From NCBI GenBank assembly GCA_903824675.1, contig CAIJXV010000089.1:1-51318 (forward strand): 51,318 nt of DNA, written 5' to 3'. A program made the position numbers and the translations under genes. This stretch comes from an uncultured bacterium (GTDB lineage Bacteria > Verrucomicrobiota > Kiritimatiellia > CAIKKV01 > CAIJXV01). The notes beneath the pieces are model-generated. The model was not told the DNA's origin, searched no databases, and saw nothing but the letters and a program-made list of their open reading frames with translations. Shown here one piece after another: positions 1,435 to 51,165 of this stretch (position 1 is its first letter; every line of letters starts with the position of its first letter).

Positions 1435-2175
1435 TTAAAGATCTTGTTTCTTGCGTGTGCCTGTAACCTCTGAAAGGCGATTTCTTATCCATCTTCGGAT
1501 CCAGCCTGGCGCCTTGCCCGATGGGCGCTTCGTTCGTTCCGCATCCGCGTATCTCCATTCCGGAAGCAGGTGATCGTACCCGGCGGCTTCATTTTTGACC
1601 GTCGATGCAAAGCGACCTTGCTTGCTGCAAATCCAACGCTCGGCATCATATCGGTTTGACGACGATCGGGGCACAGGAAGCGTCTTTACGTATTCCGCCT
1701 TTGTCCACCACATGTTTCCGGAAAAATGCGTACCCCATGAGTGATCCACGACAAAATTGGCTCCGCAGGCATCACAGTGCTCCAATAACTTTATACATTC
1801 CAAATAGTTATCTATAACGCTGTGTTCCATAAAACGTCTCCAGTCCGTGCAAGGAACATCATGAGGGGTGGCGAATTTAGAGACGCCTTTTGTATGCAAA
1901 TACAAAAGATGACCGGTGCCCTGTTGAATAGAAAAATCGTGAAGTCCCTGTAAAGCAGGAAACTCAAAATTGTCCAAAGGCCCGCCGTACTGGAGGACGA
2001 AATTGTCTTTTGAAATCAAGCTCTTACATTCATCAAATAGCGATTCCGGCCCAACCGCATACGCGAATACCGGCGCGTTCCGGGGACCGCGTGAAGCTAA
2101 TCGCAGGACTTGCTCTTCGACCACGTCTTTCCACCGGCCCACCATGGCTATGTGATAAAAAATGTGTATGTTCAT
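1435..2175 (-). CDS. glycosyltransferase-like protein of the YLHTKG type
   Basis: A 246-residue protein with no signal peptide. The middle contains LLYLHTKGVSK (about residues 90-100), a WRRFMEH segment, and CGANFVVDHSWGTHFSGNMWW split over residues 137-155, a pattern seen in lipopolysaccharide/rhamnan-type glycosyltransferase-like proteins, where the HFSGNxWW part is diagnostic. The C-terminus is strongly basic (WIRRWIRNRL). The most likely role is transfer of a sugar during surface glycan synthesis; substrate unknown. No other glycan genes adjoin it, and the neighbours are toxin-antitoxin genes and repeats, which suggests an isolated acquisition. The family call rests on motif memory only. 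Confidence 0.6.
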   Translation of the reverse strand: MNIHIFYHIAMVGRWKDVVEEQVLRLASRGPRNAPVFAYAVGPESLFDECKSLISKDNFVLQYGGPLDNFEFPALQGLHDFSIQQGTGHLLYLHTKGVSKFATPHDVPCTDWRRFMEHSVIDNYLECIKLLEHCDACGANFVVDHSWGTHFSGNMWWTKAEYVKTLPVPRSSSNRYDAERWICSKQGRFASTVKNEAAGYDHLLPEWRYADAERTKRPSGKAPGWIRRWIRNRLSEVTGTRKKQDL

Positions 2176-2531
2176 GTATTCGTGATCCCGGCTTTCATAT
2201 TACTTTTAACCGGCTTCATGTCAATGTGCTCTTTCATGGAGATAGGGCAAGTGCAGTTACGGAGCACGGCGTAGATTTGGTCGGTACGCAATTAATATCG
2301 CGCTTGTGCTTTAGGCCCTGCTCGGGCACACTTTTCCCAACGAAAGCGCTTCTTCATGCCGGCCTCCACGGGCGTGTGCCCGAACCACCCGAAAAGCGAT
2401 TTCTTATCAATCTTCCGGCAACTGCTCGAAGAAGCGGCGGTGCGGGGAATTTTCAAGTTGGAACATGATGAAAAATCCGGCGGCATTGTGGTCCGCCGGT
2501 GCCGGCCATAAGGCATAGGAAAGGATCGAAT
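2176..2531. other. intergenic region, mostly unassigned
   Basis: No convincing gene. Around 2385-2425 a segment read on the minus strand repeats about 27 bases of the 3' end of the preceding glycosyltransferase-like gene (the part encoding RRWIRNRL, near 1477-1505) with a few differences. It could be a decayed copy of that tail, or chance similarity of basic codons. AGGAAAGGA at about 2517-2525 is the likely ribosome binding site of the next gene. Confidence 0.3.
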
Positions 2532-3950
2532 ATGATTACTGGAACGATGAAAATCGGTTGGGCCCGGGTGGACATCACGCCCCCTAAAAAGACGTTGTTG
2601 CAAGGTCAGTTTCATGCCCGAGTTTCCAAGGGGACCCTCAGCCCGCTGACTGCTACGGCTCTGGCTTTGGAGGTGTGTGCTGCGGATGGAACGACCGGAC
2701 AGGTGGTGTGGCTTTCCTGCGATTTGCCCGCAGAGAGTTTCAAGGCGGAACTCGTGGCCAAACTGGCACGGCGCTGCCCCGGTTTTGATCCGACCTATCT
2801 CACCCTTAATTGCACGCATACCCACAATGCGTCACCCGTTCGGCGGGGTATGTATGAAGAACCGCAAAATGATCCGGATTTCATGAATCCCGACGAGTAC
2901 CGTAATTGGCTGACGGGTCGGCTGGCAGAAGCGATTGTTTCAGCGTGGAAGAAACGCCAGACGGGAACGATCAGCCGCGGGTTCGGTTACGCGGTGGTGG
3001 GGCGCTGTCGCCGGGCCACCTATACGGATGGATCGGCGCGGATGTACGGACAGACCCAGTCGGCAGATTTCCAAGCGCTAGAGGCGTGTGATGATCACGC
3101 GGTCAATTTTCTGTTCACGCACAATGCCGCGGGAAAAGTCAGCGGGGTGATCATCAATTTGGCCTGTCCGTCCCAATGTGACGAGAACGGGGAGGAATTC
3201 TCATCCGACTTTTGGCATGAGGTGCGCGCGGGGATTGCCAAGCGATTTGGCGCCCGGGCCCACTTGCTTCCGCAATGCGCGCCGGCGGGGGATGCCTCGC
3301 CGCATCTCATGCTGGACCAGAATGAAGAGAAGGATCTCCGGGATCGAATGAAGGTGAACGACAAGCAGATCATCGCCCGGCGGATTCTCGCGGCGGTCGA
3401 TGAGGCGAGGACCCATGCTTCTCCGCCCGTGGCAGAGGTGGCGTTTGCGCACGAAGTGAAGACCTTCCGACTTCCGCGGCTCATGGTTACGCCGGAGCAA
3501 TACGAAATGGAGAAACGCATTCCGACTCTCAGCGAGGCGGAACGTCAAAAGAATCCATGGGGATTTGAGCGGATCTGGCCGTTCGGTCCGGTTTGTAACA
3601 TCGTCCAGCGCTATGAACAGCAGGCGGCGAATCCCCTTCACGAGACGGAATGCCATGTCGTTCGCGTGGGAGACGTGGTGTTTGCCACGAATCCCTTCGA
3701 ATTATTCGTGGATTACGGGACCCGGATGCGCGCCCGGAGCAAGGCTCTGCAGACATTTCTGGTCCAGCTTGCGGATGGGTCGGGCAACGGATTTTACCTG
3801 CCGACGGCGCGGGCCTTTGCGGGGGGGCACTACAGCGCCCTGATCAAGTCCAACTGGGTGGGGCCGGAGGGCGGCCAAGTGTTGGTCGACGAGACGGTGT
3901 CGGCCATCAATACGCTCTTCACCGCAGAGGAATATCCCCGGGCCCGGTGA
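2532..3950 (+). CDS. neutral/alkaline non-lysosomal ceramidase-type domain protein
   Basis: A 472-residue protein matching the N-terminal domain of neutral ceramidases (PF04734): the opening IGWARVDITPP, the metal-binding segment NCTHTHNASPV (about residues 100-110), and later VRVGDVVFATNPFELFVDYG and NGFYLPT. No signal peptide is visible, unlike true secreted ceramidases. In PVC bacteria such stand-alone domains are common among sugar-metabolism genes and their substrate is generally unknown. The ATG at 2532 is preferred over an upstream GTG at 2499 because AGGAAAGGA lies just upstream of it. It is followed by a long gap, so it is probably monocistronic. Confidence 0.8.
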   Translation: MITGTMKIGWARVDITPPKKTLLQGQFHARVSKGTLSPLTATALALEVCAADGTTGQVVWLSCDLPAESFKAELVAKLARRCPGFDPTYLTLNCTHTHNASPVRRGMYEEPQNDPDFMNPDEYRNWLTGRLAEAIVSAWKKRQTGTISRGFGYAVVGRCRRATYTDGSARMYGQTQSADFQALEACDDHAVNFLFTHNAAGKVSGVIINLACPSQCDENGEEFSSDFWHEVRAGIAKRFGARAHLLPQCAPAGDASPHLMLDQNEEKDLRDRMKVNDKQIIARRILAAVDEARTHASPPVAEVAFAHEVKTFRLPRLMVTPEQYEMEKRIPTLSEAERQKNPWGFERIWPFGPVCNIVQRYEQQAANPLHETECHVVRVGDVVFATNPFELFVDYGTRMRARSKALQTFLVQLADGSGNGFYLPTARAFAGGHYSALIKSNWVGPEGGQVLVDETVSAINTLFTAEEYPRAR

Positions 3951-4424
3951 GGTTTCAATAGAGGGTGAAACTCGTTCCATCAGAAACCCGCGTTTCGTAG
4001 TCACCCATATCCACCAGGGCGCGACGGTTCCGATCGTGGCGAGGCCGGCAGATGGCTATCGCTTCGGCTGGTGGGCGGGTGCGGAGGAACAGGGACAGGT
4101 TATCAGTCGGGATAGGAGTTGACGAGGGGCGGAGTGGGGCGTAGAGAATAAGGCGGGGAGGGTTTTTATGCGTATGCCACGGGTGAAGGCAGAGGGATAA
4201 GGGTTTTATCATTGCATCTCGCGAATCATCGAACGCCGGTACATTTTCCAGGATGAACAAAAGGATTTTTTTATTTAATTCTGCATAGCGGCTATAGCGA
4301 AGCCGTGGCTGGAAAACAAATCGTCCGCAAAATCGCCGCAAAGGCTTGCTTAAGAAAAATAAAACTAATAACCTTTCCCTAATCAAACATCATGATCTTA
4401 TGATCTTTACCGGAGGATAGGCTA
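3951..4424. other. intergenic region with no recognised gene
   Basis: This 474-base gap is more AT-rich at its right end (poly-A/T tracts near 4260-4385) than the surrounding genes, consistent with a promoter for the downstream fusion gene. A GGAGG ribosome binding site sits about seven bases before the ATG at 4425. Open frames on the minus strand here have no family resemblance. A small CGGCT/AGCCG stem lies near 4288-4304. Confidence 0.5.
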
Positions 4425-6737
4425 ATGGTCAAAGACTGGCTATTCGAGGATGAGGATGCAGTTGCAGCCCACGCGGTGATGGCCGGGCTGCCGGCAAAGC
4501 TATTCGATATCCATGCGCATCTCTACCGGAAAGACACGCTGTCCGTTGCGCCAGAAAACCTTTTTGTTACGGGGCCGGATGATGGCACACCGGATCTGTG
4601 GCGGAAATATCTCGGTCGGCAGGTCGGATGCGACCGTCTGACAGGCGCGCTCTTTATCCCCGTGCCTTTCGTCGCGCGGGAGCGGATCGTCGAAGTCAAC
4701 GCAGGGATCATGCAGATGCTCGCCGGGGAAGATGAGAGCAAGGCGCTCGCCCTCGTGGTGCCGGGCATGACGCCAGCGGATGTGGAGCCCCTGCTCAAGC
4801 ACAAGCCATTCGCCGGGTTCAAGCCTTATCACACTTATAGTCGCACCCAACCCACGTTTGATGCGCTGCCGGGTGACTACATCCCCGAATGGGTGTGGCC
4901 CATGGCGCATGAACACGGCTTGGTTATCACTCTCCACCTGGTGCGGTCTGGCGCGATGGCGGATGCCGGTAACATTCGATATGTGCGCGACCATTGCGAG
5001 CGATTCCCCGGTGCGCGCCTGATCCTGGCGCACTGCGGCCGTTCATTTCATGCGCCCAATGCCGCCGCGGGCATTACCAGCCTATGCGACCTGCCGAACA
5101 TCTGGTTCGATACGGCGGCAATCTGTGAAGCAGAACCCCTCAATGCTCTGCTGAACGCCTGTGGTCCACGCCGCCTGCTCTGGGGTAGCGATTTCCCGGT
5201 CTCCGAACAGCGGGGGCGCTGCGTAACGGCCGGCGACGGCTTTTTCTGGCTGACATCCGATGTCGTGAAGCCGGTGCCGCCGGCATGCCGCCTGCTGCCT
5301 GTCGGGGTGGAGAGTCTGCGGGCTTTCCAAACGGCGGCCGCGGGATTCGGTTTGAATGCGTCCGATCTCCAGGATATTTTTGCCGATAATGCCCGGCGCT
5401 TACTGGGACTGCTGCCGGCGAATGAATCCCTCACGCAGGATACGTATCGCCATGCCAAGCAGCGCATGCCCGGCGGGACGCAATTGCTGAGCAAGCGCCC
5501 CGAGATGCTCGCGCCCGACCAATGGCCGGCGTACTTCCGCGAAGCGCGCGGGTGCGAAACCTGGGATCTCGACGGACGCCACTACTACGATTTTTCCACC
5601 AACGGAATTGGTTCCTGTATGCTTGGATTCCGCGATCCTGACGTGACGCAGGCGGTGAAGCGTCGGATCAATCTCGGCAGCATGTGCACTCTGAATCCAC
5701 CTGAGGAAGTGGAGTTGGCCGATCTGTTATGCGAGATTCATCCCTGGGCTGAGCAGGTCCGTTTCGCCCGCTGCGGCGGCGAAGCCTGTGCGGTGGCGGT
5801 GCGCATTGCCCGCGCCACCACGGATCGTTCGATCGTGGCGATCTGCGGCTATAGCGGATGGCAGGACTGGTACTTGGCAGCGAATCTCGGCGAATCAGAT
5901 TCTTTGCGCGGACATCTCCTGCCCGGTTTAAGTCCTTTGGGCGTACCCCGTGAACTGCGTGGGACGACTCTTACGTTCAGCGCCAACAACAGGGATGAAT
6001 TTCAGGCACTGCTCGACAAACACGGCGACCAGTTGGCCGCGGTGATTATGGAGCCGTGTCGTTCTAACGATCCCGACCCGGGCTTCCTTGAGTTTGTTCG
6101 TGACGGTGCACATCGTGCAGGGGCTCTGCTGGTCTTCGATGAAATCACCATCGGTTGGCGCCTGCACTTTGGCGGCGCCCATCTCAAATTTGGCGTCACC
6201 CCGGATCTGGCTGTGTTTGCGAAAGCCATCGGTAACGGCCACCCCATGGCTGCCATTGTCGGCACCCGGACGGCCATGGCCGGCGCCCACGGCTCATTCA
6301 TCAGCAGCACCTACTGGACGGAGAGCGTCGGGCCGGTGGCGGCCTTGGCGACGCTTCGCAAAATGCAGACCATAAACGTGCCGGAGCATGTTGCCCGGGT
6401 TGGCGCCCGCGTGCAGCACGGCTGGGCGGCGAGCGGGCGCCGCCATGGCTTGCCCGTGCAGGTCGATGGCTATCCCTGCCTGGCCCACTTTCGCTTTGCA
6501 CATGAGAAGACAGATGTGTTGCGAACTCTTTATACCCAATATATGCTCGAACGAGGTTTTTTGGCTGGGACAGGGCTCTATCCGACCATGGCCCACACCG
6601 AGGCCATTGTCGAACGTTATGAAAAGGCAATCGATGAAGTTTTTGGCCGGATCGCGCAGGCGCTGGCCGATGGAAATGTGGAACAGCGGTTGCGCGGCCC
6701 AGTCGCGCACAACGGGTTTCGTCGCCTGACGGGATGA
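4425..6737 (+). CDS. amidohydrolase / class III aminotransferase fusion protein
   Basis: A 770-residue two-domain protein. Residues 1-330 are an amidohydrolase-2 TIM barrel (PF04909): H30 and H32 in DIHAHLYR, H171 in ITLHLVR, H203 in LILAHCGRS, and D256 in LLWGSDFPVS, so the metal/catalytic set is present. Residues 335-770 are a PLP fold-type I class III aminotransferase close to glutamate-1-semialdehyde aminomutases: GGEACAVAVRIARA near 451, D572-E573 in VFDEITIGW, and the PLP lysine K600 in FAKAIGNGHP. Both halves look catalytically complete and there is no stop or shift between them. It probably acts on successive steps of one pathway in the cytoplasm; the substrate is not deducible. A separate, related amidohydrolase is encoded at 44828-45892. 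Confidence 0.85.
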   Translation: MVKDWLFEDEDAVAAHAVMAGLPAKLFDIHAHLYRKDTLSVAPENLFVTGPDDGTPDLWRKYLGRQVGCDRLTGALFIPVPFVARERIVEVNAGIMQMLAGEDESKALALVVPGMTPADVEPLLKHKPFAGFKPYHTYSRTQPTFDALPGDYIPEWVWPMAHEHGLVITLHLVRSGAMADAGNIRYVRDHCERFPGARLILAHCGRSFHAPNAAAGITSLCDLPNIWFDTAAICEAEPLNALLNACGPRRLLWGSDFPVSEQRGRCVTAGDGFFWLTSDVVKPVPPACRLLPVGVESLRAFQTAAAGFGLNASDLQDIFADNARRLLGLLPANESLTQDTYRHAKQRMPGGTQLLSKRPEMLAPDQWPAYFREARGCETWDLDGRHYYDFSTNGIGSCMLGFRDPDVTQAVKRRINLGSMCTLNPPEEVELADLLCEIHPWAEQVRFARCGGEACAVAVRIARATTDRSIVAICGYSGWQDWYLAANLGESDSLRGHLLPGLSPLGVPRELRGTTLTFSANNRDEFQALLDKHGDQLAAVIMEPCRSNDPDPGFLEFVRDGAHRAGALLVFDEITIGWRLHFGGAHLKFGVTPDLAVFAKAIGNGHPMAAIVGTRTAMAGAHGSFISSTYWTESVGPVAALATLRKMQTINVPEHVARVGARVQHGWAASGRRHGLPVQVDGYPCLAHFRFAHEKTDVLRTLYTQYMLERGFLAGTGLYPTMAHTEAIVERYEKAIDEVFGRIAQALADGNVEQRLRGPVAHNGFRRLTG

Positions 6738-6751
6738 TGAGATGAGAATCA

Positions 6752-7033
6752 TCAGGGACAGGTTAATAATTTCCATTGTGCCGGGGTCACCTCATATTGG
6801 CCCATGTAGAACGGTTTGGTAAGCGTGACTTTATGAACCGGTTGATCGTGTCCGTCCACAGCCGAGCCCATCATGAAAGATCCCGGCTGAATCAGCCCCA
6901 AAGCCATTGTTACCCCGTGTCCCACATCCCAAGAGAGGGATTTGTCCGACTCCTGGGCTGGGGGAACCGTTGGGTCGGCAGACAGAGGGGATGCAATTAT
7001 CAGTAATACGGAAACGATAACGATTGACCGCAA
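6752..7033 (-). pseudogene. truncated formylglycine-generating enzyme/SUMF1-like gene
   Basis: The 93-residue frame begins with a convincing signal peptide (IVIVSVLLIIASPLSA) and then the start of a SUMF1/FGE-sulfatase domain: IQPGSFMMGSAVDG, VTLTKPFYMGQYEVTPAQW. The family domain normally runs about 200-250 residues with the catalytic cysteines near its C-terminus. Here it stops after roughly 55 domain residues, a few bases from the stop codon of the convergent fusion gene. The missing part is not found next to it, so this is a deletion remnant, not a frameshift. Confidence 0.75.
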
Positions 7034-7142
7034 GACAAAAATGAGCGGGTCATGATAATCATATGATCTCCTTCCCAGGGTTCGTGTGTCGCTGTTAATG
7101 GGGCTTCAACTCTTTGGATAAACAGATGAAAACGCGGCCGGA

Positions 7143-8717
7143 CTATTTTTCAGTTTTCCTCGATGGGATATCGGAGTTTGCGGGAGGCAACGCATAGAGG
7201 GCCAATTCCGGAGCAAGCATCGTGACCCCTTTGGGCCGATACCATACCGGCGATCCGCTTGCGCGTAGGGTATTATAGAACGGTAAACGTATCGGGGCAT
7301 CCGCGAATTGGCCATTCGCCATATGTGCCAGTGGGCCATTTTGCTGGTACCGGGCCACATAATCGAGGTTTATCGCCACATGGGTTACCCCTTTCTGGCG
7401 TAGATCCGATAGGGGATCGTAGCCTTTTAGCCCATACCAGTGCGGGAGCTGCATCAATCGTGTGTGCGGAGTCCAGCCATGCCAGTTTCTTTCAGGTATT
7501 CCCGAATCAGGAATATCGGCCATGAAATCGTAAGCCACAAAGGCCTGGGGATGGTTTTGATCCAAATATCGCGCCAGTTCTATCCGGTAATCTTCCCGAC
7601 CCAATCGGAGAGTCCATTGCAAAGCGATGTAAACCTGAAAAATCACTACGACCGGTGCCGTCCAGCCGGTTAACCGTCGTATCCATCCCGGACGGGTTCG
7701 CCCCTGCCATGCCTGGGCTAAAGCCAACCCCGCAAGAATCGAAGCCATTCCCCAGAGAGGGAGGTAGTAGCGTGACACGACCCGTGCAATGAATAACAGA
7801 AGAAGGGAATAGAATGCAGCCCAACATAGAATCACGCCTTCGATCCAACTCGTTTTGCGTTCACGACGGATAAGTTGAATCAGATAAAGGGCGAATCCCC
7901 ATCCGGTTACCACCCCCATGCCGTGGATGAAATTATACCCCGGGAAAGGCGTATAAACGGAATCATGAAACAAAAAATCGATTTCACGCGCCATTTCATG
8001 TCGAAAAACCGTCAGCCCGGTCAGTATCTGATAATTGATCATGCACCAAGCCGCCATCATGGCTATGAGAGCGACGAACACTCGTTTCCATCGGGTGCGA
8101 TGATCGGAAGCCGGCAGCATCCATGCGACCGGAAGAGAGATGGCCGCCGCCATCCAGCCGATATGTTTGCCCGATGCGCATAAGGCCGCCGCCACGCCGA
8201 CCATGACCCAACTGTAGGCCCCGTGTTTTTTTTGAGCGGATTGAATGGCCAGCAGGGTTAAAGCCCAGCCGAACCAAAGGGCGGTATCTTCCTTAAAATG
8301 ATGTGCCGCCCACAGGGCGTTTATGTTTGAGCTCACGAGGATTCCTGCGAATATTCCCGCGGACGGTCCCGCCAATCGCCAGGCCAGTAACGAGCAGCAA
8401 AGCGCGGCGCCTATCGAAAATCCAGCCGAGATCAGGCGTCCGATGAAGGCTGCATTTTGTAAATCGGGAGGGGATGCGAGAAGGCGATAACAGGCTTCAG
8501 TGGTATTGATCAGCAGAAGAGGATGATGTAAATCCCGGTTGCCTGAAACAACCTGTGCCGCCTTGCCGCCTTCATCCCATGTGTACCAAAAGGGAAAATT
8601 CTGATTTCGAGAATAACCCCATAAAAGAAATAATCCAAAGAACAGTAACCATGCAACCAGACCCCACGATGGCCGAGTGCCATCGGCCGATGAGGCTGAA
8701 CTCTTAATCATGGGCAT
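7143..8717 (-). CDS. GT-C fold membrane glycosyltransferase (ArnT/PMT-like, family 39 type)
   Basis: A 524-residue polytopic membrane protein. The first membrane segment (LVAWLLFFGLFLLWG) is followed by a loop with the acidic pair in YTWDEGGKAAQV, the catalytic/metal-binding position in GT-C enzymes, and by HHFKEDTALWFG, matching the second conserved loop of dolichyl-phosphate-mannose-type transferases. About ten hydrophobic segments follow and the C-terminal 150 residues are an extracytoplasmic soluble part. It should transfer a sugar from a lipid-linked donor on the outer face of the membrane. It is a stand-alone gene; the acceptor is unknown. The start may be the third codon (second ATG). 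Confidence 0.75.
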   Translation of the reverse strand: MPMIKSSASSADGTRPSWGLVAWLLFFGLFLLWGYSRNQNFPFWYTWDEGGKAAQVVSGNRDLHHPLLLINTTEACYRLLASPPDLQNAAFIGRLISAGFSIGAALCCSLLAWRLAGPSAGIFAGILVSSNINALWAAHHFKEDTALWFGWALTLLAIQSAQKKHGAYSWVMVGVAAALCASGKHIGWMAAAISLPVAWMLPASDHRTRWKRVFVALIAMMAAWCMINYQILTGLTVFRHEMAREIDFLFHDSVYTPFPGYNFIHGMGVVTGWGFALYLIQLIRRERKTSWIEGVILCWAAFYSLLLLFIARVVSRYYLPLWGMASILAGLALAQAWQGRTRPGWIRRLTGWTAPVVVIFQVYIALQWTLRLGREDYRIELARYLDQNHPQAFVAYDFMADIPDSGIPERNWHGWTPHTRLMQLPHWYGLKGYDPLSDLRQKGVTHVAINLDYVARYQQNGPLAHMANGQFADAPIRLPFYNTLRASGSPVWYRPKGVTMLAPELALYALPPANSDIPSRKTEK

Positions 8718-8913
8718 ATTCCTTGCGGGATGGGAACATATTTGAAATAGGAATAATTATCCTCGTTGGAGTGAAAGTCAAGTTTTCACACTTGTTTCCC
8801 GAAGAAATGGGTATTATTGACCCTGACTTTTGCGTTTGATAGCTACACAAATACCCGGGCGTGTAAGGTCAGGGAAAGCCGGCCCCTGACAGAGGGTGCG
8901 TGTGGAATGAAAA

Positions 8914-8945
8914 AAATAGGGGACAAGTTGGCTTGTCCCCTATTT
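8914..8945 (-). terminator. rho-independent terminator of the NifU-like gene
   Basis: A perfect 14-base inverted repeat (8914-8927 with 8932-8945) separated by a four-base loop. Read on the minus strand the stem is followed by a run of T residues (the A run at 8910-8916 on the plus strand). It lies about 40 bases past the stop codon of the minus-strand NifU-like gene at 8986. Confidence 0.9.
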
Positions 8946-8985
8946 GGAGGTTCGTCTGCAGGATTTGTCGTTCTATTCTGCGAAA

Positions 8986-9207
8986 CTATTTCACCTGGGT
9001 AATGGTGATTTCTTCGTCGATTTCTTCACGCAGGATCCGCTCGAGTCCCTGCTTGATGGTCATCGTGGCATGCGGACAGCAACCGCAGGCGCCTTTGAGG
9101 CGGAGTTGGACCGCCTTTCCGGTAATTGAAACCACTTCGAGATCGCCGCCGTCGGCTTGGAGCATGCTCCGAAGTTCTTCCAGCTTGGCCTTGATTTTTT
9201 CGTCCAT
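8986..9207 (-). CDS. NifU C-terminal-domain Fe-S scaffold protein
   Basis: A 73-residue protein that is just the NifU C-terminal domain (Nfu type), which holds a transient [4Fe-4S] cluster at a CxxC pair for delivery to target proteins. The motif is clear: LQADGGDLEVVSI near residues 17-29, then CGCCPHATMTIKQGLE with the CxxC pair around residues 41-44. Length fits the minimal Nfu family. It is followed by a strong terminator and stands alone, with GGGAG about seven bases upstream of the ATG. It is a plausible supplier of clusters for the many Fe-S proteins encoded at 16.7-24.4 kb (inference). Confidence 0.9.
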   Translation of the reverse strand: MDEKIKAKLEELRSMLQADGGDLEVVSITGKAVQLRLKGACGCCPHATMTIKQGLERILREEIDEEITITQVK

Positions 9208-9553
9208 TTGAGACTCCCTATGGGGTTAAAACAGGCACTTATTTTCGCATGATGCCAGGCGAAACAAAAGCGAAAAGTGTGCATCGCAAGGTTAAGAGCG
9301 GGTACGCCAACCGATTCTTATCGCTGTCGGCCCGCCCTCGGTGGCGGGCGTCTGGAGAGGGAGGGGGCTGGATCCGCGGACGCCGGGCGCAGAGGCCCAG
9401 CCTACAACAACGGGGAATCGGGTTGCGGGCGAAACCCCACCTGTTTGCACCGAATCGCAGATGCGCCCAAGGGTAAAGAGCGCATGGAGGCTCTATGCGA
9501 GAGACTCCCTCCTGTACTTTTAACACCAATTTGATTAATATCCGGCGCTACAA
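9208..9553. repeat. intergenic region with dispersed repeat (copy 1, 9331-9441)
   Basis: No gene is supported. The segment 9331-9441 shares three blocks, in the same order, with 15043-15240: a CCCGCC/GGCGGG hairpin followed by CGTC, GGACGCCGGGCGCAG (9378-9392), and GGGTTGCGGGCGAA (9420-9433). Between the blocks the two copies diverge. This is a family of non-coding dispersed repeats rather than a protein remnant. Open frames read through it change frame between copies. Confidence 0.6.
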
Positions 9554-10321
9554 ATGGACACCCATCAAATCATATCTGCGCTCTTAATTGCCTTGGCGGG
9601 CGGGATATTACAGGGGATGGTGGCGTTCGGCTTTGGTCTGTTTTCAGTTCCGTTGCTCCTGTCGGTGGGGTTTTCCATGCCGATGGTCCTGGCCATTTCA
9701 GCCATCTGCACCGTGATCCAATCGCTCAGCGGGGTTCACCACTTGCGGCATGTCGTCCCCTGGAAAGAGGTTTGGCTTTCGGTCGTTCTCCGCGGGGTGA
9801 CTCTGTTGTTGGGGATTTGGGTGGTGCAGGTTCTGGTTAATTATCCGGTGTTTTCACTGAAATTCTGGATCGGCCTGGTCATGCTTTTGATGACCCTCTT
9901 ACAGGCGGCCTGGCAACCCAAACCGCGGCCGAAATTGCACAGCGGCTGGAATGTCGCCGCTTTTCTGGTCAGCGGTTTTACCGGAGGGCTGTGTTCGATG
10001 GGTGGCCCGCCGCTGGTATTATGGGTGATGGCGCACGACTGGCCGGTGGACCGGACGCGGGCCTTCCTCTTCGCCTCGTTCATGAGCCTGGTGCCGTTGC
10101 AATTGGCCATTCTCTATTGGACGTTTGGGCATGATGTCCTGAGCGGCATGATGCTGGGGATTGCGCTTTCGCCGGCCGTTCTGCTGGGTTCGGTGATTGG
10201 GTTGCGAATCGGGGGGCGTTTTTCCAAGCCCATTCTACGCAAGGTGGCCTTCCTCGTCCTATTGGCAATCGCCTTGTATTCGATGTATCCGCAGATCCTG
10301 CGGTGGATGCCTGCGCACTGA
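9554..10321 (+). CDS. TauE/SafE-family (TSUP) anion permease
   Basis: A 255-residue membrane protein with about eight hydrophobic segments and the duplicated family signature: GGILQGMVAFGFGLFSVPLL in the first half and SGFTGGLCSMGGPPLVLW in the second. Family members export or import sulfite, sulfoacetate or related small organic anions. Length is typical. No strong ribosome binding site precedes the ATG, and no sulfur-metabolism gene adjoins it, so the substrate cannot be named. The downstream side is a tandem repeat array. Confidence 0.85.
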   Translation: MDTHQIISALLIALAGGILQGMVAFGFGLFSVPLLLSVGFSMPMVLAISAICTVIQSLSGVHHLRHVVPWKEVWLSVVLRGVTLLLGIWVVQVLVNYPVFSLKFWIGLVMLLMTLLQAAWQPKPRPKLHSGWNVAAFLVSGFTGGLCSMGGPPLVLWVMAHDWPVDRTRAFLFASFMSLVPLQLAILYWTFGHDVLSGMMLGIALSPAVLLGSVIGLRIGGRFSKPILRKVAFLVLLAIALYSMYPQILRWMPAH

Positions 10322-10353
10322 GATTCGACCCTGCGGGGCCCTCATGCCGCTAG

Positions 10354-10613
10354 GCGTATCGCGGGGCTGAACTTCCCGAGAGCCATCCCATAGGTCTGGC
10401 TCTACACTCGAGTCGGTCTCTCCTGTACAGCCATGCGTATCGCGGGGCTGATCTTCCCGAGAGCCATCCCATAGGTCTGGCTCTACACTCGACTAGGTCT
10501 CCCCGTACAGCCATGCGTATCGCGGGGCTGAACTTCCCGAGAGCCATCCCATAGGTCTGGCTCTACACTCGAGTCGGTCTCTCCTGTACAGCCATGCGTA
10601 TCGCGGGGCTGAT
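10354..10613. repeat. tandem REP-like array, about 3.2 copies of an 80/81-bp unit
   Basis: Units start at 10354, 10435, 10515 and 10596 (spacing 81, 80, 81); the last is cut off after about 18 bases. Each contains two imperfect palindromes: one around GCGTATCGCGGGGCTG and one around AGCCATCCCATAGGTCTGGCT. Units differ by only a few bases. Related palindromes occur singly at 37168-37231 and 49751-49798. There are no unique spacers, so it is not a CRISPR array. The array fills much of the 462-base gap between the permease gene and the large secreted protein. Confidence 0.9.
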
Positions 10614-10783
10614 CTGTAGTGCCCTCAACAAGCGCGGCTTTCACCTGTTTCTCGGAAATTTATTCAGCTCCCATTTCCGCATAAGATTGCTTTTTGAGCC
10701 CGATTAGGGCACAGTTTCGCTCTTAATTTTTTGCCGGGCTCACTGAACAACTGGTCAGCGGCTTGGAATTTGAGGAGGACATC

Positions 10784-13700
10784 GTGAAAGTAATGCGCGT
10801 GATGCGAATGCTGGGTTGGGGTCTGATTGTTTTCCAGGGTTTAACCGCGGGCGCGGCTCCGGCGGCGCCCAAGGCTAAAAAGGTGCCCCCGGCGCCCGTT
10901 TGGGAATCGATTGCCGTGGAGCCGACGTTGGAGCAGGCGTTAGTTCCGGTTTTAGGGACCAATGCCGGCAAAGAATGGTCGACCCAGCCGGCCCGTAAAG
11001 GCTCGGGAATGATCTTTACCCTGATTCAGGATGGACAACTGGGGCTACCGGCGGTCAAGGCCGAAGGCCGCACCCAGGTCTTGCGGCGGGAATGGGCGGG
11101 CGAACCTTTTGAGATCGAGTATTATGTTAAATTCAAGGGGGACAAAGGGGCTACCTTGAATCTCCTGCTGTATCCCCGCGAAGAGACCTCGGCGCCGCCG
11201 GCGTTGTTAAATTTGAGTTTGCGCGCGGCCAAGGGGCAAATGACGGTCAGCGCTTTCAAGGATAAAGGGATTTTTAAGTCCAGGGCATATGACACCATCC
11301 TGCCGATGTGGCCCGATTTCGTGCGCATTCCCATGGAACAGGACATGGCGACCCTGCCGGATATCGATCACCGGTGGTTTCAAGTTCGTGTGACCAGTGT
11401 TGGGGACCGTGTTCAGGTGTGGGTCGATGATCGCTTTATTGCGGAACAGACATTGCCCGGCCCGGATGCCGTGCGCCGGATCGAGCTGAGAATAGCCGGT
11501 GAAATAGAGTTGGCGGGTTGGACTCTGAAAAACCCGCCCGTCACAGACCCCGCCTATACGATCCTGCCGTTGGATGGGTATGCCCGCGATCGGCAGTTAC
11601 GTCCGAAAGGGGTGGCCTTGGCCGATAGCGCATTACCCTTCGGACAAAAGATGGAGGTGGGGGGGGTGCCGTTTCAACTGGTCCGACGTCCCCAGTCGAC
11701 CGCACCGGATCATATCGATGTGGGCCGCAGTCTGATCCGGCAAGGTGCGATGGAAGGGTATTTTCCAGCCACCGACCAACGATTGGGAAATGCCTTTACC
11801 CCGGATCCGGCCCGCATTCAGCTCCGTCTGCCCCAGGACCAATATGATACCCTTTATGTTCTGGCCGCCTTTGATGAGGAATCCGACAGCATCCCTTTGT
11901 TTTCCGCCGCCTTTTACCGTCCCAAAGCCGGGTTTCATGAGATTTTCGAGGGCCAGGTTCCCGGCTTGACCGCCGATCCGAAACAGAATGCCAATTGTAT
12001 GGCGGTCCCCGTCAAATTAACCGATGGAGCCGCCGCCCGGCTGTGGCGGGTGGCCGTGCCGCTCGATCCGGCGCGCTTGGCGGCGTTTTCGGATTTGGAT
12101 GCGGTGGAACTCGAGTTGACCAAAAAGATGACGATTTACCGGTCGTTCCCCGATCCCATCAATTATGGTTGGCATGGCGCCGGCTTGCCGAGCGGTGTCC
12201 GGATTTACGCCCTGACCCTGCACCGGGCGGCGGTTGAGGTGCAACTGACCCCGGACGTGTTCGGTCATGTCTGGACCGATCCGGCGGTGCCCGCCTACCA
12301 TGTCGGCCTGACCAACCGCACCGGGGTCGCCCGGACGGTACGACTGACCGCTGAGACGGTGAGTTACGACGGTCGCGAAAAAACCACACAAACGCAGACG
12401 AAGCGCTTGGCGTCGGGGGGCGGGGTTGACGTGCCCTTCAAATTCAAAGTGACCCGGAATGGATTGCATACCCTGACCCTGCGAATGGAGACGGAGGGGG
12501 TGACGGAGCGGCAGGAGGTTCGGTATTTTGCGCGCCTGGCGAAGGACACCCGGGCGCCCTTCTGGGAGGAAGGACAGGGTCCGCTGTTTGGCTACTGGTC
12601 CTACCAGGGCGGGCATGACACACCGCCTGCGGCGGATATCATGCGGGTCATGTATGCGGCCGGAGCCCGGGCCGTACCTCATGCGCCCCAATCCGGGGAA
12701 GCCCTCCAATTATATGACGAATGGAAATGGCGGGATGTCGGAGTTCCCCGCGCGATCAATGTCTATCGCGACTGGAATGACCCTGTCAAAACCGAGGCCT
12801 TCTCGAATAACACGACCGCGGCCATTCGTAAATATTTTGGCGATTCACCCGAGCTGGTGACCTTTTATGCCGAGCCGGCGATTTCGCGCGAGCTGACGGC
12901 CGGGCACCCGCCGGAGTATTGGGGCGACCCGTCCTATGTCATGAATGGGGCGGAGAGCAATTCGTTGGCGAACTTCATGCAGACGTCCCGTTATGTGTCA
13001 GAAATCGTTCGCGCGAATTGGCCGAAGGCCAAGGTTTTGATCCCCTGGGGCGATCCGCTGTTTGTGGTGCCGATGTTACGCGCAGGTTTTCCCCGAAATC
13101 TGGTGGATGGGAGCGGGTTGGATATGATCGGATTCGAGCGTCTGCCCGAACAACAGATTCACCAGATGAGTACCCATCGCCTGTATATCCTCCGGGAAGA
13201 ATTCCGCAAGGCCGGCATCACCAACCCGCTCCTCGCCTATGTCGAAGGAACGTTTGAGCCCACGGAGCCCGGCGCGCTGACCTGGGATGAGCAGGCCGAG
13301 CGGTATCACCGCTGGACCCTGATTTCGCTGGCGTATGGCGTCGACCGGTTTTATTCCGGATGGTTTGCCTACGATTGCGGTGATTATTACGGGGCGGAAC
13401 ACTATGGGGGGTGCGGTATTCAGCGTCGCATTCCGTATAGCGATCCCAAGCCGGCGTATGCCCATTATGCCACACTGACCCGCCAGTTGGATCGCTCGCA
13501 TTTCGCCGGCTGGCTACCGACGGGGTCGCACTCCGTGTACGCCCTGAAATTCGACCGGCCCACCGGTCCGGTGCATGTTTTCTGGACTGTGCGCGGCCGC
13601 CAGCCGGTTGAATTGGAACTCGATCAGGATGCGAAACTCCAGGTGACCGATGCGATGGATAACACGGATGTGTTGCCGACCACCGGTCGCCGGGCCACGC

Positions 13701-42045: not shown

Positions 42046-43053
42046 ATGCAAATGCGATCTCTGGGTGCCAGTCGGATTGAAGCTTCGGTGGTGGGTTTGG
42101 GAACGTGGGCGATAGGCGGATGGATGTGGGGGGGGACGGATGATGCGGAATCGATGGTCGCCATCCAGACTGCGATTGAGTCCGGCATAACGCTCATCGA
42201 TACGGCGCCGGCCTATGGTTTCGGTCACGCGGAAGAAATCGTGGGGCGGGCGTTGGCCGGGCGGCGCGACCGGGTGGTTCTGGCCACGAAATGCGGATTA
42301 GTCTGGCATTGCCGGAAAGGCAAACTGTTTTTTAATTCCGAGGAAGGCAGTATCACCCAGGGGGAAGGCAAATATCAGGTGCATCGCTACCTGGGGCGCG
42401 ATGCGATCCGCTATGAAGTGGAGCAGAGTTTGCGCCGGCTGAAGGTGGATTACATCGATCTTTACCAGACCCATTGGCAGGATGTGACGACGCCGATTGA
42501 CGAGACGATGGACGAGTTGTTGCGGCTCAAACAGGCCGGAAAAATCCGGGCGATTGGCGTGAGCAATGCCACGCCGGCGGAGATGGATCAATATCGCGCC
42601 GTTGGCCAACTCGATGCTGATCAGGAAAAATACAGCCTCTTGGATCGCCAGCCTGAGGCTGAACAACTGCCTTATGTTCGGAAGGCCGGCCTGGCTTTCC
42701 TGGCCTATTCTCCGTTGGCCCAGGGTTTGTTAACCGGCGCGATCGGGCCGGATCGCGTCTTTGACAAGGATGATTTGCGATTTACCCGCAGCCGGTTCAA
42801 TGTCGACAATCGTCGCCGGGTGGCGCAGTTACTGGCGGCCTTTCGTCCGGTGGCTGAAAAACACCGGATCAGCCTGGGCCAGTTGGCCATTGCTTGGGCT
42901 TTTCACCAGCCGGGTTGTACGCATGCGCTCATCGGTGCACGGAACCCGAAACAGGCGGAGGAAAATGCCCGGGCCGGTGCCGTGGTGTTGGACGCCGCCG
43001 ATTTGGCCGCGATGAGCCGGGCGCTGACAGCCTGGGAAGGACTTCAGGAATAA
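42046..43053 (+). CDS. aldo/keto reductase
   Basis: A 335-residue cytosolic oxidoreductase using NADPH. The catalytic tetrad is visible: D and Y in IDTAPAYGFGHAEEIVG, K in VLATKCGLVW, and H in YIDLYQTHWQD. The C-terminal cofactor segment IGARNPKQAEENARAG is typical. Length and layout match AKRs of the YeaE/Gfo-adjacent type, often found with sugar-catabolic genes. The ATG is preceded by AAAGGA. It may interconvert sugar acids or sugars with the neighbouring oxidoreductase. Substrate unknown. Confidence 0.9.
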   Translation: MQMRSLGASRIEASVVGLGTWAIGGWMWGGTDDAESMVAIQTAIESGITLIDTAPAYGFGHAEEIVGRALAGRRDRVVLATKCGLVWHCRKGKLFFNSEEGSITQGEGKYQVHRYLGRDAIRYEVEQSLRRLKVDYIDLYQTHWQDVTTPIDETMDELLRLKQAGKIRAIGVSNATPAEMDQYRAVGQLDADQEKYSLLDRQPEAEQLPYVRKAGLAFLAYSPLAQGLLTGAIGPDRVFDKDDLRFTRSRFNVDNRRRVAQLLAAFRPVAEKHRISLGQLAIAWAFHQPGCTHALIGARNPKQAEENARAGAVVLDAADLAAMSRALTAWEGLQE

Positions 43054-43210
43054 AGTGCACGGTGTTGGATAAGGACCCCAAGCAGGTTGTGACCGATCAA
43101 ACCCATTCCGGCTCGCTCGGAGAGCTCGCCCTCCCTTTGGAATTTGAAAGGGTCGGATTTTGCGATCTCCTAAGCGTTTCTAACAGCCTACAGTCTAAAA
43201 TCCTTTTGTT

Positions 43211-44623
43211 ATGAACTATGATCTCTGCATCATGGGCGGCGGGAGCGGGGGCACTGCGGCGGCGATTGCCGCCGGCCGGTTCGGTTTAAAGACCCTGCTC
43301 GTGGAAGCCGCTGACCGCCTGGGCGGCACTTCGGTTCGCGCCGGCGTTTCGACCTGGGAGGCGGGCTGCGGCGGGACGGGAATTCCCTTCGATCTGTACC
43401 GGGGTCTCCAGACGATGCCCGGCGCCGTGGGAATCTATCGGATTAACCGCCATTGTTGCTGGCCGGAAGACGGGTTTTATCCCGGTGCCGAATGTTTACT
43501 GGATTCCACCCTGACGTACCCGGACACTTTATGCCGCCATTCCCGGGGCGCCTTGAGTTATCTGCGACCGGAGGATAAACCCCTGATCCGGGCTCGCTGG
43601 CATGGGGTCTCGATCGAGCCGGAGGCCTTGTCGCAGGCGATGACCGAGGCCTGCCGGGAAACCAATCGGGTGACGATCCGCTTGGGGGTGAGCCTGGACC
43701 AGGTCGAAACGCAGGCCGGAACCGTGCGGGCGATAAGGTTATCCGACGGAACCCGGGTGACGGCTGCGACTTTTATCGATGGGACGGGGGATGGCGCGTT
43801 GTGTGCCGCGTGTGGATGCGAACGACATTTGGGACGGGATCCCCGGTCGCGCTATGATGAACCCGGTGCGCCGGAAAATGCGGACGATCAGATCAACGGG
43901 GTCAGCTTGATTTTTCGAATCACCCCGAAATCCGTTCCGGGCATCGATGTCCCTCCGATTCCGGTCCCGGACAAGTGTTGGTGGCGTCCTGATTTTTCGA
44001 TGGCGTCCTGTGTCCAATATCCCGATGGCGATTTTAACGTCAATATTCTTCCCACTATGGAAGGGCGTGAATATTTACGATTGGGGCCGGAGGCGGCCTA
44101 TGCCGGAAGTCTGCGCCGGGTTCACGCTTTTTGGAGGCATTGGCAGGAACGTTTTCCGGAATGGCGGTCCTATTGTATTCGCTGGATTGCCCCGGCGTTG
44201 GGCGTGCGCGAGAGTTACCGGGTGGTCGCTGAAACAATGCTCACCCGGCATGATCTGGAGGCCGGGCTTCGGCGGCAGACTCAACCGGATCTCATCGCGT
44301 TGAATGATCATCCCTGTGATGTTCATGGCGGGGGAGAGGGGGGCACGACCGGGGTGGCTTCGGCATACGGGGTTCCCTTTAGGTGTTTGATTCCCAAGGG
44401 TTGGGCCAATTTATTGATTGCCTCACGGGCGGCGGGGATGAGCGCCCAGGCGGCCTCGAGTTGCCGATTGACGCGCGTGATCATGACGTTGGGGCAGGCT
44501 GCGGGCACGGCGGCCGCGCTGGCGAGTGAGACAGGGGTGGGTGTGGCGCGGGTGGATCCAGCTGCCTTGCGCCAAAGGTTGCGCGAACAAGGCGTGCAAT
44601 TGTCGAGTCCGGACATAGGGTGA
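43211..44623 (+). CDS. FAD-dependent oxidoreductase (PF12831 type)
   Basis: A 470-residue flavoprotein. The N-terminal FAD motif is CIMGGGSGGTAAAIAAGRFG; then GGTSVRAGVSTWE, the GxGD-like FIDGTGDGALCAACG (near 190-205), and the C-terminal LLIASRAAGMSAQAASS with VIMTLGQAAGTAAALA. This layout is that of the PF12831 family, which in PVC bacteria often sits in sugar-degrading loci. No signal peptide is seen. The substrate is unknown. It follows the aldo/keto reductase by 157 bases. Confidence 0.85.
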   Translation: MNYDLCIMGGGSGGTAAAIAAGRFGLKTLLVEAADRLGGTSVRAGVSTWEAGCGGTGIPFDLYRGLQTMPGAVGIYRINRHCCWPEDGFYPGAECLLDSTLTYPDTLCRHSRGALSYLRPEDKPLIRARWHGVSIEPEALSQAMTEACRETNRVTIRLGVSLDQVETQAGTVRAIRLSDGTRVTAATFIDGTGDGALCAACGCERHLGRDPRSRYDEPGAPENADDQINGVSLIFRITPKSVPGIDVPPIPVPDKCWWRPDFSMASCVQYPDGDFNVNILPTMEGREYLRLGPEAAYAGSLRRVHAFWRHWQERFPEWRSYCIRWIAPALGVRESYRVVAETMLTRHDLEAGLRRQTQPDLIALNDHPCDVHGGGEGGTTGVASAYGVPFRCLIPKGWANLLIASRAAGMSAQAASSCRLTRVIMTLGQAAGTAAALASETGVGVARVDPAALRQRLREQGVQLSSPDIG

Positions 44624-44647
44624 AAAGGGAATGAATAGACTGAGAAC

Positions 44648-44708
44648 GGACGGGACGGAGCCCGTCCCTCCAGGGGAATGGACTGCGCTGGATGGAGGGT
44701 CGCCCTCC
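44648..44708. repeat. two short hairpins after the oxidoreductase gene
   Basis: GGACGGG (44648-44654) pairs with CCCGTCC (44661-44667), and GGAGGG (44694-44699) pairs with CCCTCC (44703-44708). Both are parts of GGAGGG/CCCGTCC-type dispersed sequences also seen at 49820-49905. They could form mRNA hairpins after the oxidoreductase stop codon, but neither has a T run. Confidence 0.55.
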
Positions 44709-44827
44709 TGTCAGGAGCAACATCGAAGGGCCGTGGGGAACGGGAGATGGACTGGGACTGGAATTGACAATTTTCGACGGTTCTGGAACGATGCCAGATG
44801 GTTTCCAATATCACTAATGAGGATCCA

Positions 44828-45892
44828 ATGAAAACAACTCCCTCCCTATTCGAGGTTAAAGACGTTGATCGCCAGTTTTATGCCAAGCGCTTGGCCGCAT
44901 TTTTGCCCGAACGAATCATCGATATTCACACCCATGTCTGGCGGGCGGAAGACCAGCCCCCCGAGCCTCCCGTCCAGGATTCGCGGTTGGTCAGTTGGCC
45001 CGCTCGCGTGGCCGCGGTCAACCCAATCGAAGACCTGATGGAAACCTACCGCCTGATGTTGCCGGGCAAGACGGTGACCCCCTTGATCTTTTCCGGACTT
45101 CCCCAGGGAGGAAATCTGCCTCGCATCAATGCCTATGTCGCCCGCTGTGCCCGGACCCATCACGTTCCGGCATTGATTTTCAGCGATCCGTCCTGGTCGG
45201 CGGAGGAACTGGAACGGCGGGTGAAGGCCGGCGGATTTTTGGGTGCGAAAAGCTACCTGGCTCTGGCGCCGTCTTACATCCCCGGCAAGGAGATCCGGAT
45301 CACCGATTTCTTCCCGCCCCACCAGTTGGAGGTTCATGATCGCAACGGGTGGATCGTGATGCTGCATATTCCCCGCGACGGCCGGCTCAAGGATCCGGTG
45401 AACCTGGCCCAGTTGGTGGATATCGACAAGGCCTACCGGCGTCTCAAGTTGATTGTGGCCCATGTGGGACGGGCGTATTGCGACGAGGATGCCGGCAATG
45501 CCTTTGATGTCCTGTCCGCCACGCGCCGCCTCGTATTTGATTTCTGCGCCAACACCAATGCCCATATTTTCGAGATGGCCCTGCGTACCGTGGGACCTCG
45601 CCGGCTATTATTCGGAACCGATCTCCCCATCACCCGGATGCGCATGTGCCGGATTACGCACGATGGGCATTACGTCAACCGCGTTCCCCGCGGACTCTAT
45701 GGCGATGTGTCCGGCGACAAGAATATGGAAGAAGTGTCCGGCCCTGAGGCCGACCGCCTGACTTTTTTCATGTACGAGGAAATCGACGCCTTCCGTCGGG
45801 CGGCTGAACGGCTGAAACTCACGCGCCGGGATGTCGCCAATGTCTTTGCCGGTAATGCCGCGCGGATCATTCGGGCCGCCGGAGGGCGATGA
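44828..45892 (+). CDS. amidohydrolase-2 family protein
   Basis: A 354-residue TIM-barrel amidohydrolase. Metal/catalytic residues are visible: H-x-H in IIDIHTHVW, the K in GFLGAKSYLAL, H in VMLHIPRDG, H in LIVAHVGRAYC, and D in LLFGTDLPITR. It is the same family as the N-terminal half of the fusion protein at 4425-6737 (compare AHCGRS/AHVGRA and LLWGSDFPVS/LLFGTDLPIT) and so probably acts on a related substrate. The ATG at 44828 is preceded by TGAGGA. Its last codons and stop are part of a 56-bp direct repeat. Confidence 0.88.
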   Translation: MKTTPSLFEVKDVDRQFYAKRLAAFLPERIIDIHTHVWRAEDQPPEPPVQDSRLVSWPARVAAVNPIEDLMETYRLMLPGKTVTPLIFSGLPQGGNLPRINAYVARCARTHHVPALIFSDPSWSAEELERRVKAGGFLGAKSYLALAPSYIPGKEIRITDFFPPHQLEVHDRNGWIVMLHIPRDGRLKDPVNLAQLVDIDKAYRRLKLIVAHVGRAYCDEDAGNAFDVLSATRRLVFDFCANTNAHIFEMALRTVGPRRLLFGTDLPITRMRMCRITHDGHYVNRVPRGLYGDVSGDKNMEEVSGPEADRLTFFMYEEIDAFRRAAERLKLTRRDVANVFAGNAARIIRAAGGR

Positions 45893-49728: not shown

Positions 49729-50256
49729 TTCGGGCTTGTTCAAGCCAGTACAGCCACGCGTATCGCGTGGCTGATCTCTCTGTGAGCCATCCCATAGAAG
49801 GTAAAAAAATTGGTTGAGAGCGGTCGGGGTGGCACCCGACCCTCCCAATTTCCAAGAAAAATAGTCTGATTAATTCAAGGGAGGGACGGGTGCCACCCCG
49901 TCCGCGGATTCATTCGCCGCTTCATAAGTCTGGCTTTATTTCATCCGATAGCCGCCAGCAAAATAGTTCTGGATCACGGTGATGCCAGGGTGTTCGCACC
50001 CCTCTCTTTTCCGAGGAGATTACGGGGCAGCTCTCCCCGCGAGCCATCCCATAAGTCTGAGCCCGGCTTCTCCCTCCACCCGGCGCGGGGGAGGGTGGGG
50101 TGAGGGGTTCCCTCCCCATCTTCTTCGTCATTTTAATTAAGCCCAAAAAATGTTTGTGCCTCAAAACATTTATGGGTAGCATCGGGCTGGTTATCACACA
50201 ACAAAATCAGCAACCCGTGGAAGATCTCAAATTCACGCGGTTGCGAGGAGACATCC
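49729..50256. repeat. repeat-rich intergenic region
   Basis: 49751-49773 is a perfect palindrome around CACGCGTATCGCGTG, followed by GAGCCATCCCATAG (49784-49797), as in the REP-like units at 10354-10613. 49820-49846 and 49879-49905 are inverted copies of a GGTCGGGGTGGCACCCGACC element. 50036-50060 has a partial REP motif (GAGCCATCCCATAAGTC), and 50089-50114 has the GGCGCGGGGGAGGG element of 16504-16619. No protein gene is supported. GAGGAGA before 50257 serves the next gene. Confidence 0.8.
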
Positions 50257-51165
50257 ATGTCCTTATCGATCCTTAAAGTTCCCTTCAATGGCTGGACGAA
50301 CAATTACCTGCTGAGCAACGGCCAGGTCGAGGTCGTCATCACGGCCGATGTCGGCCCGCGGATTTTGCGCTTTGGTTTCAAGGGCGGTCGGAACGTGCTC
50401 TGCGAAATGCCCGGCCAGCAGGGGAATTCAGGCGAAAAGGATTGGCAAATCCGCGGTGGACATCGCCTCTGGCTCGCGCCCGAAGCGAAGCCCTGGAGTT
50501 ATGAGCTGGACAATGTGCCTGTCAATGTGACGCCGATCCTGGATGGCGTTCGGACGATCCAGGCGCCCGGCAAAATCTCGGGCATCCAGAAAATGATGGA
50601 AATCACCCTGTCGCCCAAGCGCAATGAACTCACGGTGGTCCACCTGTTGAAAAACACCGGCCGCAAAGCGGTATCCCTGGCGCCCTGGGCCCTGACCGTC
50701 ATGGCCAAAAAAGGGATGGCGATCATTCCCTTGCCGGCCAAGATTGCGCACAGCCAGCGCTTGACCCACAACCAGGAATGGAGCATCTGGGGCTATACCG
50801 ATTTCACCGATCCGCGCTGGACGTTGGGTTCGCGTTACCTCTTTTTCCGGCAGGATCCCCGTCGTGGCCCGAATAAACTGGGGATTGCGCACCGCGAAAA
50901 ATGGATTGGCTACCTGTTGGATAACACCTTGTTCGTCAAACGGTTCGACTGGGTTGATGGCGCGACCTATCCGGATGGCGGCGTGAATTTCGAGACGTTT
51001 TCGAACGAGGATATTTTGGAATTGGAAAGTTTGGGCCCGCTGGTCCGCCTGCCGCCGGGCCGGACCGTCTGCCACCAGGAAACCTGGCAACTGTTCGACA
51101 AGGTCCCGGCGATTCGGACTGAAGCCGATGTTGACCGGAAAATCCTGCCCTTGCTGAAGAAATAA
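50257..51165 (+). CDS. DUF4380-like protein, mutarotase-type fold
   Basis: A 302-residue protein that resembles DUF4380 proteins: LSNGQVEVVITADVGPRILRFGFKG near the start and GGHRLWLAPEA (about 68-78) are the family markers. The pattern of beta strands is that of galactose-mutarotase-like sandwiches. No signal peptide. In PVC bacteria it is often found beside sugar-catabolic genes, as here downstream of a sugar kinase. Enzymatic activity is not established. GAGGAGA stands just upstream of the ATG. Confidence 0.75.
   Translation: MSLSILKVPFNGWTNNYLLSNGQVEVVITADVGPRILRFGFKGGRNVLCEMPGQQGNSGEKDWQIRGGHRLWLAPEAKPWSYELDNVPVNVTPILDGVRTIQAPGKISGIQKMMEITLSPKRNELTVVHLLKNTGRKAVSLAPWALTVMAKKGMAIIPLPAKIAHSQRLTHNQEWSIWGYTDFTDPRWTLGSRYLFFRQDPRRGPNKLGIAHREKWIGYLLDNTLFVKRFDWVDGATYPDGGVNFETFSNEDILELESLGPLVRLPPGRTVCHQETWQLFDKVPAIRTEADVDRKILPLLKK

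Follow-up and report, generated by a model that had tools for sequence, protein, structure and literature searches.

Why should an amidohydrolase and a class III PLP enzyme be made as one polypeptide? The question is raised by a 770-residue open reading frame (ORF) in a 51,318-nucleotide stretch of DNA, hereafter the window, from an uncultured bacterium of the Kiritimatiellia. A preliminary description of the window had reported one unbroken frame with both sets of catalytic residues and a domain combination that it did not know from described pathways, and had suggested that a hydrolysis or decarboxylation-type reaction is channelled into an amino transfer or aminomutase step. We refer to the amidohydrolase half as AH, to the PLP half as AT, and to the fusion as AH-AT. 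The ORF is intact, and Pfam assigns residues 142-329 to PF04909 (Amidohydro_2; 69.8 bits, cut-off 26.4) and residues 368-686 to PF00202 (Aminotran_3; 135.6 bits, cut-off 30.5). Both catalytic sets are intact as well: H30, H32, H171, H203, and D256 are invariant in an alignment of 46 AH sequences, and D572, E573, and K600 are invariant throughout the AT family. We found no description of an AH-AT fusion in open-access papers, in agreement with the preliminary description. Coordinates are collected in Table 1.

Table 1 Features of the AH-AT gene and of the genes discussed with it; positions refer to the window unless a locus is named.
Feature	Position	Strand	Basis or remark
Amidohydrolase / class III PLP enzyme fusion (AH-AT), 770 aa	4425..6737	+	Single ORF; full-length homologues at 58-71% identity
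Shine-Dalgarno-like GGAGG, 8 nt 5' of ATG	4412..4416	+	Sequence read
N-terminal amidohydrolase-superfamily TIM barrel, residues 1-334	4425..5426	+	Pfam, alignment, AlphaFold2 model, Foldseek/VIA matches
Junction, about residues 330-337	5412..5435	+	Gap between homologous regions of the fusions
C-terminal glutamate-semialdehyde-aminomutase-like class III PLP domain, residues 335-770	5427..6734	+	Profiles, alignment, solved relatives
AT-domain marks: D572-E573, PLP lysine K600, LLSKR motif R358	within residues 335-770		
Free-standing PF04909 amidohydrolase, 364 aa	44798..45892	+	25-28% identical to fused AH; candidate member of the same pathway
GFO	L254 4278-5231		Window genome, contig C47
HpcH	L254 9203-10030		Window genome, contig C47
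SDR	L254 9996-10781		Window genome, contig C47
AKR	L254 10778-11677		Window genome, contig C47

The AH-AT fusion is genuine. We counted 41 non-identical fused ORFs, spread over Kiritimatiellota, Lentisphaerota, Verrucomicrobiota, Planctomycetota (complete genomes too), and Armatimonadota; a few of the 41 are truncated at contig ends or broken by a frameshift. Named metagenome-assembled genomes with the fusion belong to Kiritimatiellae, Lentisphaerae, Verrucomicrobiia, Planctomycetota including Brocadiaceae, and Armatimonadota/Zipacnadia. Recurrence on this scale, across five or more phyla and in complete genomes, means that the fusion is not peculiar to a single assembly and rules out an assembly artefact or a chance fusion. 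No stop or frameshift was found near residue 330, where the preliminary description had placed the critical point, and the junction is read through in every complete fusion found, including those on single contigs of 7-9 Mb. In most fusions, just 3-7 residues separate the homologous region of AH from that of AT. Besides the full-length homologues in Table 1, which include the relatives of the window protein with both domains, a second fusion group at ~48-51% identity comprises ~15 more Planctomycetota genomes, several of them complete single contigs. The fusion of one genome (G1384, L236:2268-4527) has a frameshift near the start of AT, which is either real or an assembly error.

The two halves also occur elsewhere as neighbouring separate genes, an arrangement that had been proposed as a point to check. 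They adjoin in Clostridia (L055; L054 with one gene in between) and in four Planctomycetota of a deeper AT clade (L186/L238, L188/L239, L189/L240, and L190/L241), and in L156 AT and AH genes lie in one cluster. In the AT tree, every AH-fused row falls into one clade (37 rows, SH-aLRT 98), inside which unfused ATs are also found; the fused state requires at least six changes, and fusion or fission has therefore occurred repeatedly. The nearest relative of the window AH domain, at 75% identity, is an unfused AH (G004, L013:8070-9164). Its C-terminal end is a degenerate sequence reminiscent of how AT begins (TQDLYPHDKSV...SGG), so this gene looks like a former fusion that has since lost its AT.

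The AH half carries the metal set HxH...H...H...D, with His and Asp at the ends of barrel strands. K133, N183, R206, and D229, which were missing from the residue list of the preliminary description, are also invariant in the 46 AH sequences; K133 sits where barrel strand 4 ends. An AlphaFold2 model of AH (pLDDT 95.7) finds its best solved match in the COG3618 enzyme 4do7/4dlf (Z 23.7, 18% identity), which we take to be L-fucono-1,5-lactonase, followed by 6uvz (Z 21.6), isoorotate decarboxylase (21.4), the LigI lactonase (20.6), and ACMSD (19.5), all listed matches being only 10-20% identical. AH thus shares barrel fold (Z 19-24) and metal set with the COG3618/COG2159 lactonases and decarboxylases, of which the solved members, unlike AH-AT, have no fused PLP domain. 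The lead of the lactonase over the decarboxylases, which are 16-18% identical, is 2-4 Z units and does not fix the reaction. This small lead, together with the sugar-type partner genes described below, leads us to favour a lactonase: the barrel would belong to the lactonase/decarboxylase branch of metal-dependent hydrolases and most likely open a sugar lactone.

The nearest solved relatives of AT are glutamate-semialdehyde aminomutases (GSAMs), with which it shares the PLP lysine and the Asp-Glu pair; R358 aligns with the N-terminal GSAM arginine that binds the substrate carboxylate. To that extent the proposed aminomutase step is possible, but AT stays far short of the cut-off of every GSAM equivalog model (226.8 versus 486 bits for NF004856 and 180.3 versus 527.3 bits for TIGR00713). 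A role as the GSAM of haem synthesis is ruled out by these scores, and the genome holds other GSAM-like genes; AH-AT further differs from HemL in being fused and in its gene context. In the first structure model, the AT domain was poor owing to a thin alignment.

More distantly related AT genes of other genomes, at 46-57% identity, reside in nonulosonate biosynthesis clusters with DegT, AKR, CTP_transf_3, GNAT, and NeuB genes, a tie that the preliminary description had missed, as it had missed a catabolic gene set elsewhere in the window genome. Among N-terminally extended AT forms, 51 of 52 are fused to a CTP_transf_3 (CMP-sugar synthetase) domain; such CTP+AT fusions lie in DegT-AKR-[CTP+AT]-GNAT-NeuB clusters of many phyla (L060-L116, e.g., L063:9281-11350 and L114:9122-11290). 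AH-AT resembles these fusions in its AT (46-50% identical, same invariant active-site residues) and in being joined N-terminally to a sugar-acid-processing domain, whereas its partner domain is an amidohydrolase and its neighbours are an aldolase and dehydrogenases instead of NeuB or PseG. No position separates AH-fused from CTP-fused ATs by a fixed difference, and ~70 positions stay invariant across the AH-fused, CTP-fused, and deep-clade sets. Since this AT is common to nonulosonate clusters and no position is fixed differently, AH-AT likely acts on a substrate related to that of the nonulosonate-cluster AT. The class III aminotransferase of Pse-type clusters is a separate gene in the flagellin glycosylation islands of Aeromonas (PMC7874193).

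Which genes accompany AH-AT? Four families recur as partners: GFO/IDH/MocA proteins (GFO), SDRs, aldo/keto oxidoreductases (AKR), and HpcH/HpaI pyruvate aldolases (HpcH); their conservation around the fusion is patchy. In L228 (Armatimonadota), the fusion is followed on one strand by GFO (70%), HpcH subfamily A (HpcH-A; 66%), SDR (60%), and AKR (54%), the percentages being identities to the window genome's own copies. Those copies lie on C47, a different contig from the fusion, and no partner gene was found beside the window copy of the fusion itself. On C47 (L254; G000:C47:41000-60000), the stretch 2114-11677 encodes a PF01979 amidohydrolase, a 311-aa protein found again in L256, L052, and L265, GFO, and then a tightly linked HpcH/HpaI-SDR-AKR group. 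L239 (Planctomycetota) encodes on one strand an SSF symporter, an HpcH/HpaI aldolase, GFO/IDH/MocA, PhyH, SDR, AT, and AH. The PDB relatives of this aldolase are the 2-keto-3-deoxy-sugar aldolases YfaU, GarL, and HpcH; those of the SDR are gluconate/hexonate dehydrogenases, and those of GFO/IDH/MocA are inositol or sugar dehydrogenases.

A GFO subfamily 67-73% identical to the window genome's copy immediately adjoins the fusion in L039, L042, and L046, and orthologous GFO genes are present in 12 of the 20 genomes with AH-AT-type genes, adjoining in these three loci and in L228. HpcH comprises two subfamilies, each recurrent beside AH or AT genes: subfamily A (50-71% identical) in Armatimonadota, Clostridia, Hydrogenedentota, and Verrucomicrobiota, and subfamily B in Planctomycetota. 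Within the class of the window genome, 10 of the 12 genomes that have AH-AT-type genes also have HpcH-A, versus 19 of 334 others (p = 2e-10, a value that ignores relatedness), and none of the 11 genomes with a nonulosonate-type AT has it; within the window's order, the figures are 5/5 versus 4/12 (p = 0.03). A Pfam tally of near versus far neighbours revealed weak enrichment only (BNR_2 6/97 versus 3/104, GFO 4 versus 0, SDR 3 versus 0, GDSL 3 versus 0) and none for HpcH (3 versus 3). This tally was ORF-based, and in GC-rich loci partner genes lying under longer antisense ORFs escaped it; partly because true genes were masked in this way, subfamily-level searches were needed.

Based on these findings, we propose, with about even confidence for and against, that the product of the ORF is bifunctional and acts in the catabolism of an amino-sugar acid, possibly a nonulosonic (sialic-acid-like) acid. 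Its placement in a catabolic pathway is moderately supported. AH is probably a lactonase-type hydrolase, and AT would remove the amine. In the step order that we propose, GFO or AKR would oxidize the sugar to a lactone, and AH would open the lactone ring. The product would then be handed to the PLP domain inside the same polypeptide, where AT would convert the amino acid-like sugar acid to its keto form by transamination. SDR or AKR would reduce the keto compound, and the HpcH/HpaI aldolase would finally release pyruvate from a 2-keto-3-deoxy (ulosonic) acid. More tentatively, and with distinctly lower confidence than the assignment to catabolism, these steps (GFO/SDR/AKR oxidation, hydrolysis and deamination by AH-AT, and aldol cleavage by HpcH/HpaI) may constitute an undescribed pathway for nonulosonic or amino-sugar acids, in which a PLP enzyme shared with pseudaminic-type biosynthesis was taken over for degradation and linked to a hydrolase. 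Under the same tentative proposal, the pathway would be found largely among uncultured bacteria, and also in some planctomycetes whose genomes are complete.

The kinship of AT also allows a biosynthetic interpretation, which we consider improbable: AT would aminate a nonulosonate or another surface-glycan sugar as in Pse-type clusters, and AH would trim a precursor. It would account for the membership of AT in the same family as the enzyme of the DegT-AKR-[CTP+AT]-GNAT-NeuB clusters, and about half of 20 fusion genomes have a strong NeuB. In the window genome, however, hits of the NeuB model are weak (28-33 bits), and several other fusion genomes are without a strong NeuB. Nor were NeuB, CTP_transf_3, or PseG-type genes seen beside any full-length fusion; the partners are instead a pyruvate aldolase and oxidoreductases. 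The window fusion itself begins with PF04909, not with a cytidylyltransferase, and has no NeuB/PseC-like DegT/AKR cluster beside it. In the AT tree, moreover, the clade of the AH-fused ATs is distinct from the CTP-fused forms.

One can also ask whether AH is a decarboxylase, in line with one of the two reactions suggested in the preliminary description. AH would then be of the ACMSD/resorcylate type, and AT, as an omega-transaminase or aminomutase, would take over the product left when an aromatic or amino acid is decarboxylated. Isoorotate decarboxylase, ACMSD, and dihydroxybenzoate decarboxylases do belong to the fold family (Z 19-21), and GSAM is the nearest solved PLP family. The partners are nonetheless of sugar type, namely a gluconate/hexonate-like SDR, a GFO/IDH/MocA protein with inositol/sugar dehydrogenase relatives, and a 2-keto-3-deoxy-sugar-type aldolase, and the relatives of AT are members of sugar-nucleotide pathways, which makes this chemistry unlikely in our judgement.

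A third possibility, which we also regard as doubtful, is that AH is an N-deacylase of an amino-sugar acid, whose freed amine AT would go on to remove, a mirror image of biosynthesis by AT followed by an N-acyltransferase. Such a deacylase would explain the fusion directly, and a GNAT gene often adjoins the biosynthetic AT genes. In binuclear amide-hydrolysing members of the amidohydrolase superfamily, a carboxylated lysine is located at the end of barrel strand 4, the site at which K133 is invariant. On the other hand, the closest solved folds are lactonases and decarboxylases and not amidases, and the PF01979 amidohydrolase of the C47 locus, also found near the L228 fusion, might be the deacylase instead. 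A role in methyl transfer, hinted at by MTTB-family methyltransferase genes adjoining AT/AH genes in Planctomycetota and Clostridia (L045:12353-13786, L050:2239-3642, and L054:3083-4537) and by URO-D-like genes adjoining fusions in L039 and L045 and neighbouring in L264, was set aside, as these occurrences are scattered.

For catabolism of an amino-sugar acid, the nature of that acid is of interest, and sialic-acid uptake genes lie near some relatives of AH-AT. In G176 (L119), AT adjoins a NanM-like domain (N-acetylneuraminate epimerase) fused to an SSF symporter. A homologue of this NanM-SiaT fusion in the G176 genome, located in a GFO-SDR-HpcH-A locus, contains a stretch matching E. coli YjhT/NanM and has Proteus SiaT (5NV9) as its best match, with 338 versus 146 bits for the next; another, independent homologue reaches 144 bits with the NanM model of Pfam. 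An AT homologue adjoins or lies near an SSF symporter in G176, G182, and G187, the last (L127) with an adjoining SiaT-like symporter and GFO upstream, while the SSF protein beside the L045 fusion is ambiguous (148.6 versus 134 bits). NanM-like/SiaT-type sodium symporter fusions of ~900 aa were observed in L119, L259, and L260, where their neighbours are AT or HpcH-A genes. Sialic-acid-like substrates are therefore plausible for part of the AH-AT family as far as gene neighbourhoods go. At E <= 1e-60, SiaT-like proteins were detected in G174, G176, G1142, and G935, and none in the window genome (G000) or in 15 more of the 20 genomes; because most fusion genomes lack such symporters, sialic acid itself is only a candidate substrate.

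Canonical sialic acid catabolism proceeds through NanA-NanK-NanE or the Bacteroidetes pathway (PMC10570557), with NanM, SiaT, and YjhC as an accessory set (PMC7535918). The loci of some AH-AT relatives are similar in having NanM-SiaT fusions, GFO/IDH/MocA, and pyruvate aldolases nearby, whereas the HpcH/HpaI aldolase, SDR, AKR, and AH-AT are without counterpart there, and no NanA-K-E set was identified together with the fusion. If our proposal is correct, AH-AT would mark a route by which amino-sugar acids, for instance bacterial analogues of sialic acid, are broken down; open-access papers yielded no pathway for the catabolism of pseudaminic or legionaminic acid. It would also offer a handle on the function of the class III aminotransferase of pseudaminic-type clusters, for which we found no assigned reaction in the open-access literature, and the fusion would reveal a hydrolase working directly before or after that aminotransferase.

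Two other regions of the window bear on its gene content. The free-standing amidohydrolase that had been described as a member of the same family is real (PF04909, 57.3 bits), but its ORF starts at 44798 and not at 44828, and at ~25-28% identity it is not a close paralogue of the fused AH. It is the last of three genes in a row (42046-45892), after an aldo/keto-reductase-like gene and a 470-aa gene whose 27-28% identical homologues lie beside fusion/HpcH loci (L230 and L236); this row is possibly a paralogous module. The pair of genes at 48142-51165 has counterparts of 61-62% identity elsewhere in the window's order, in a genome where they lie ~5 kb from an HpcH-A aldolase gene (L261:13844-16354).
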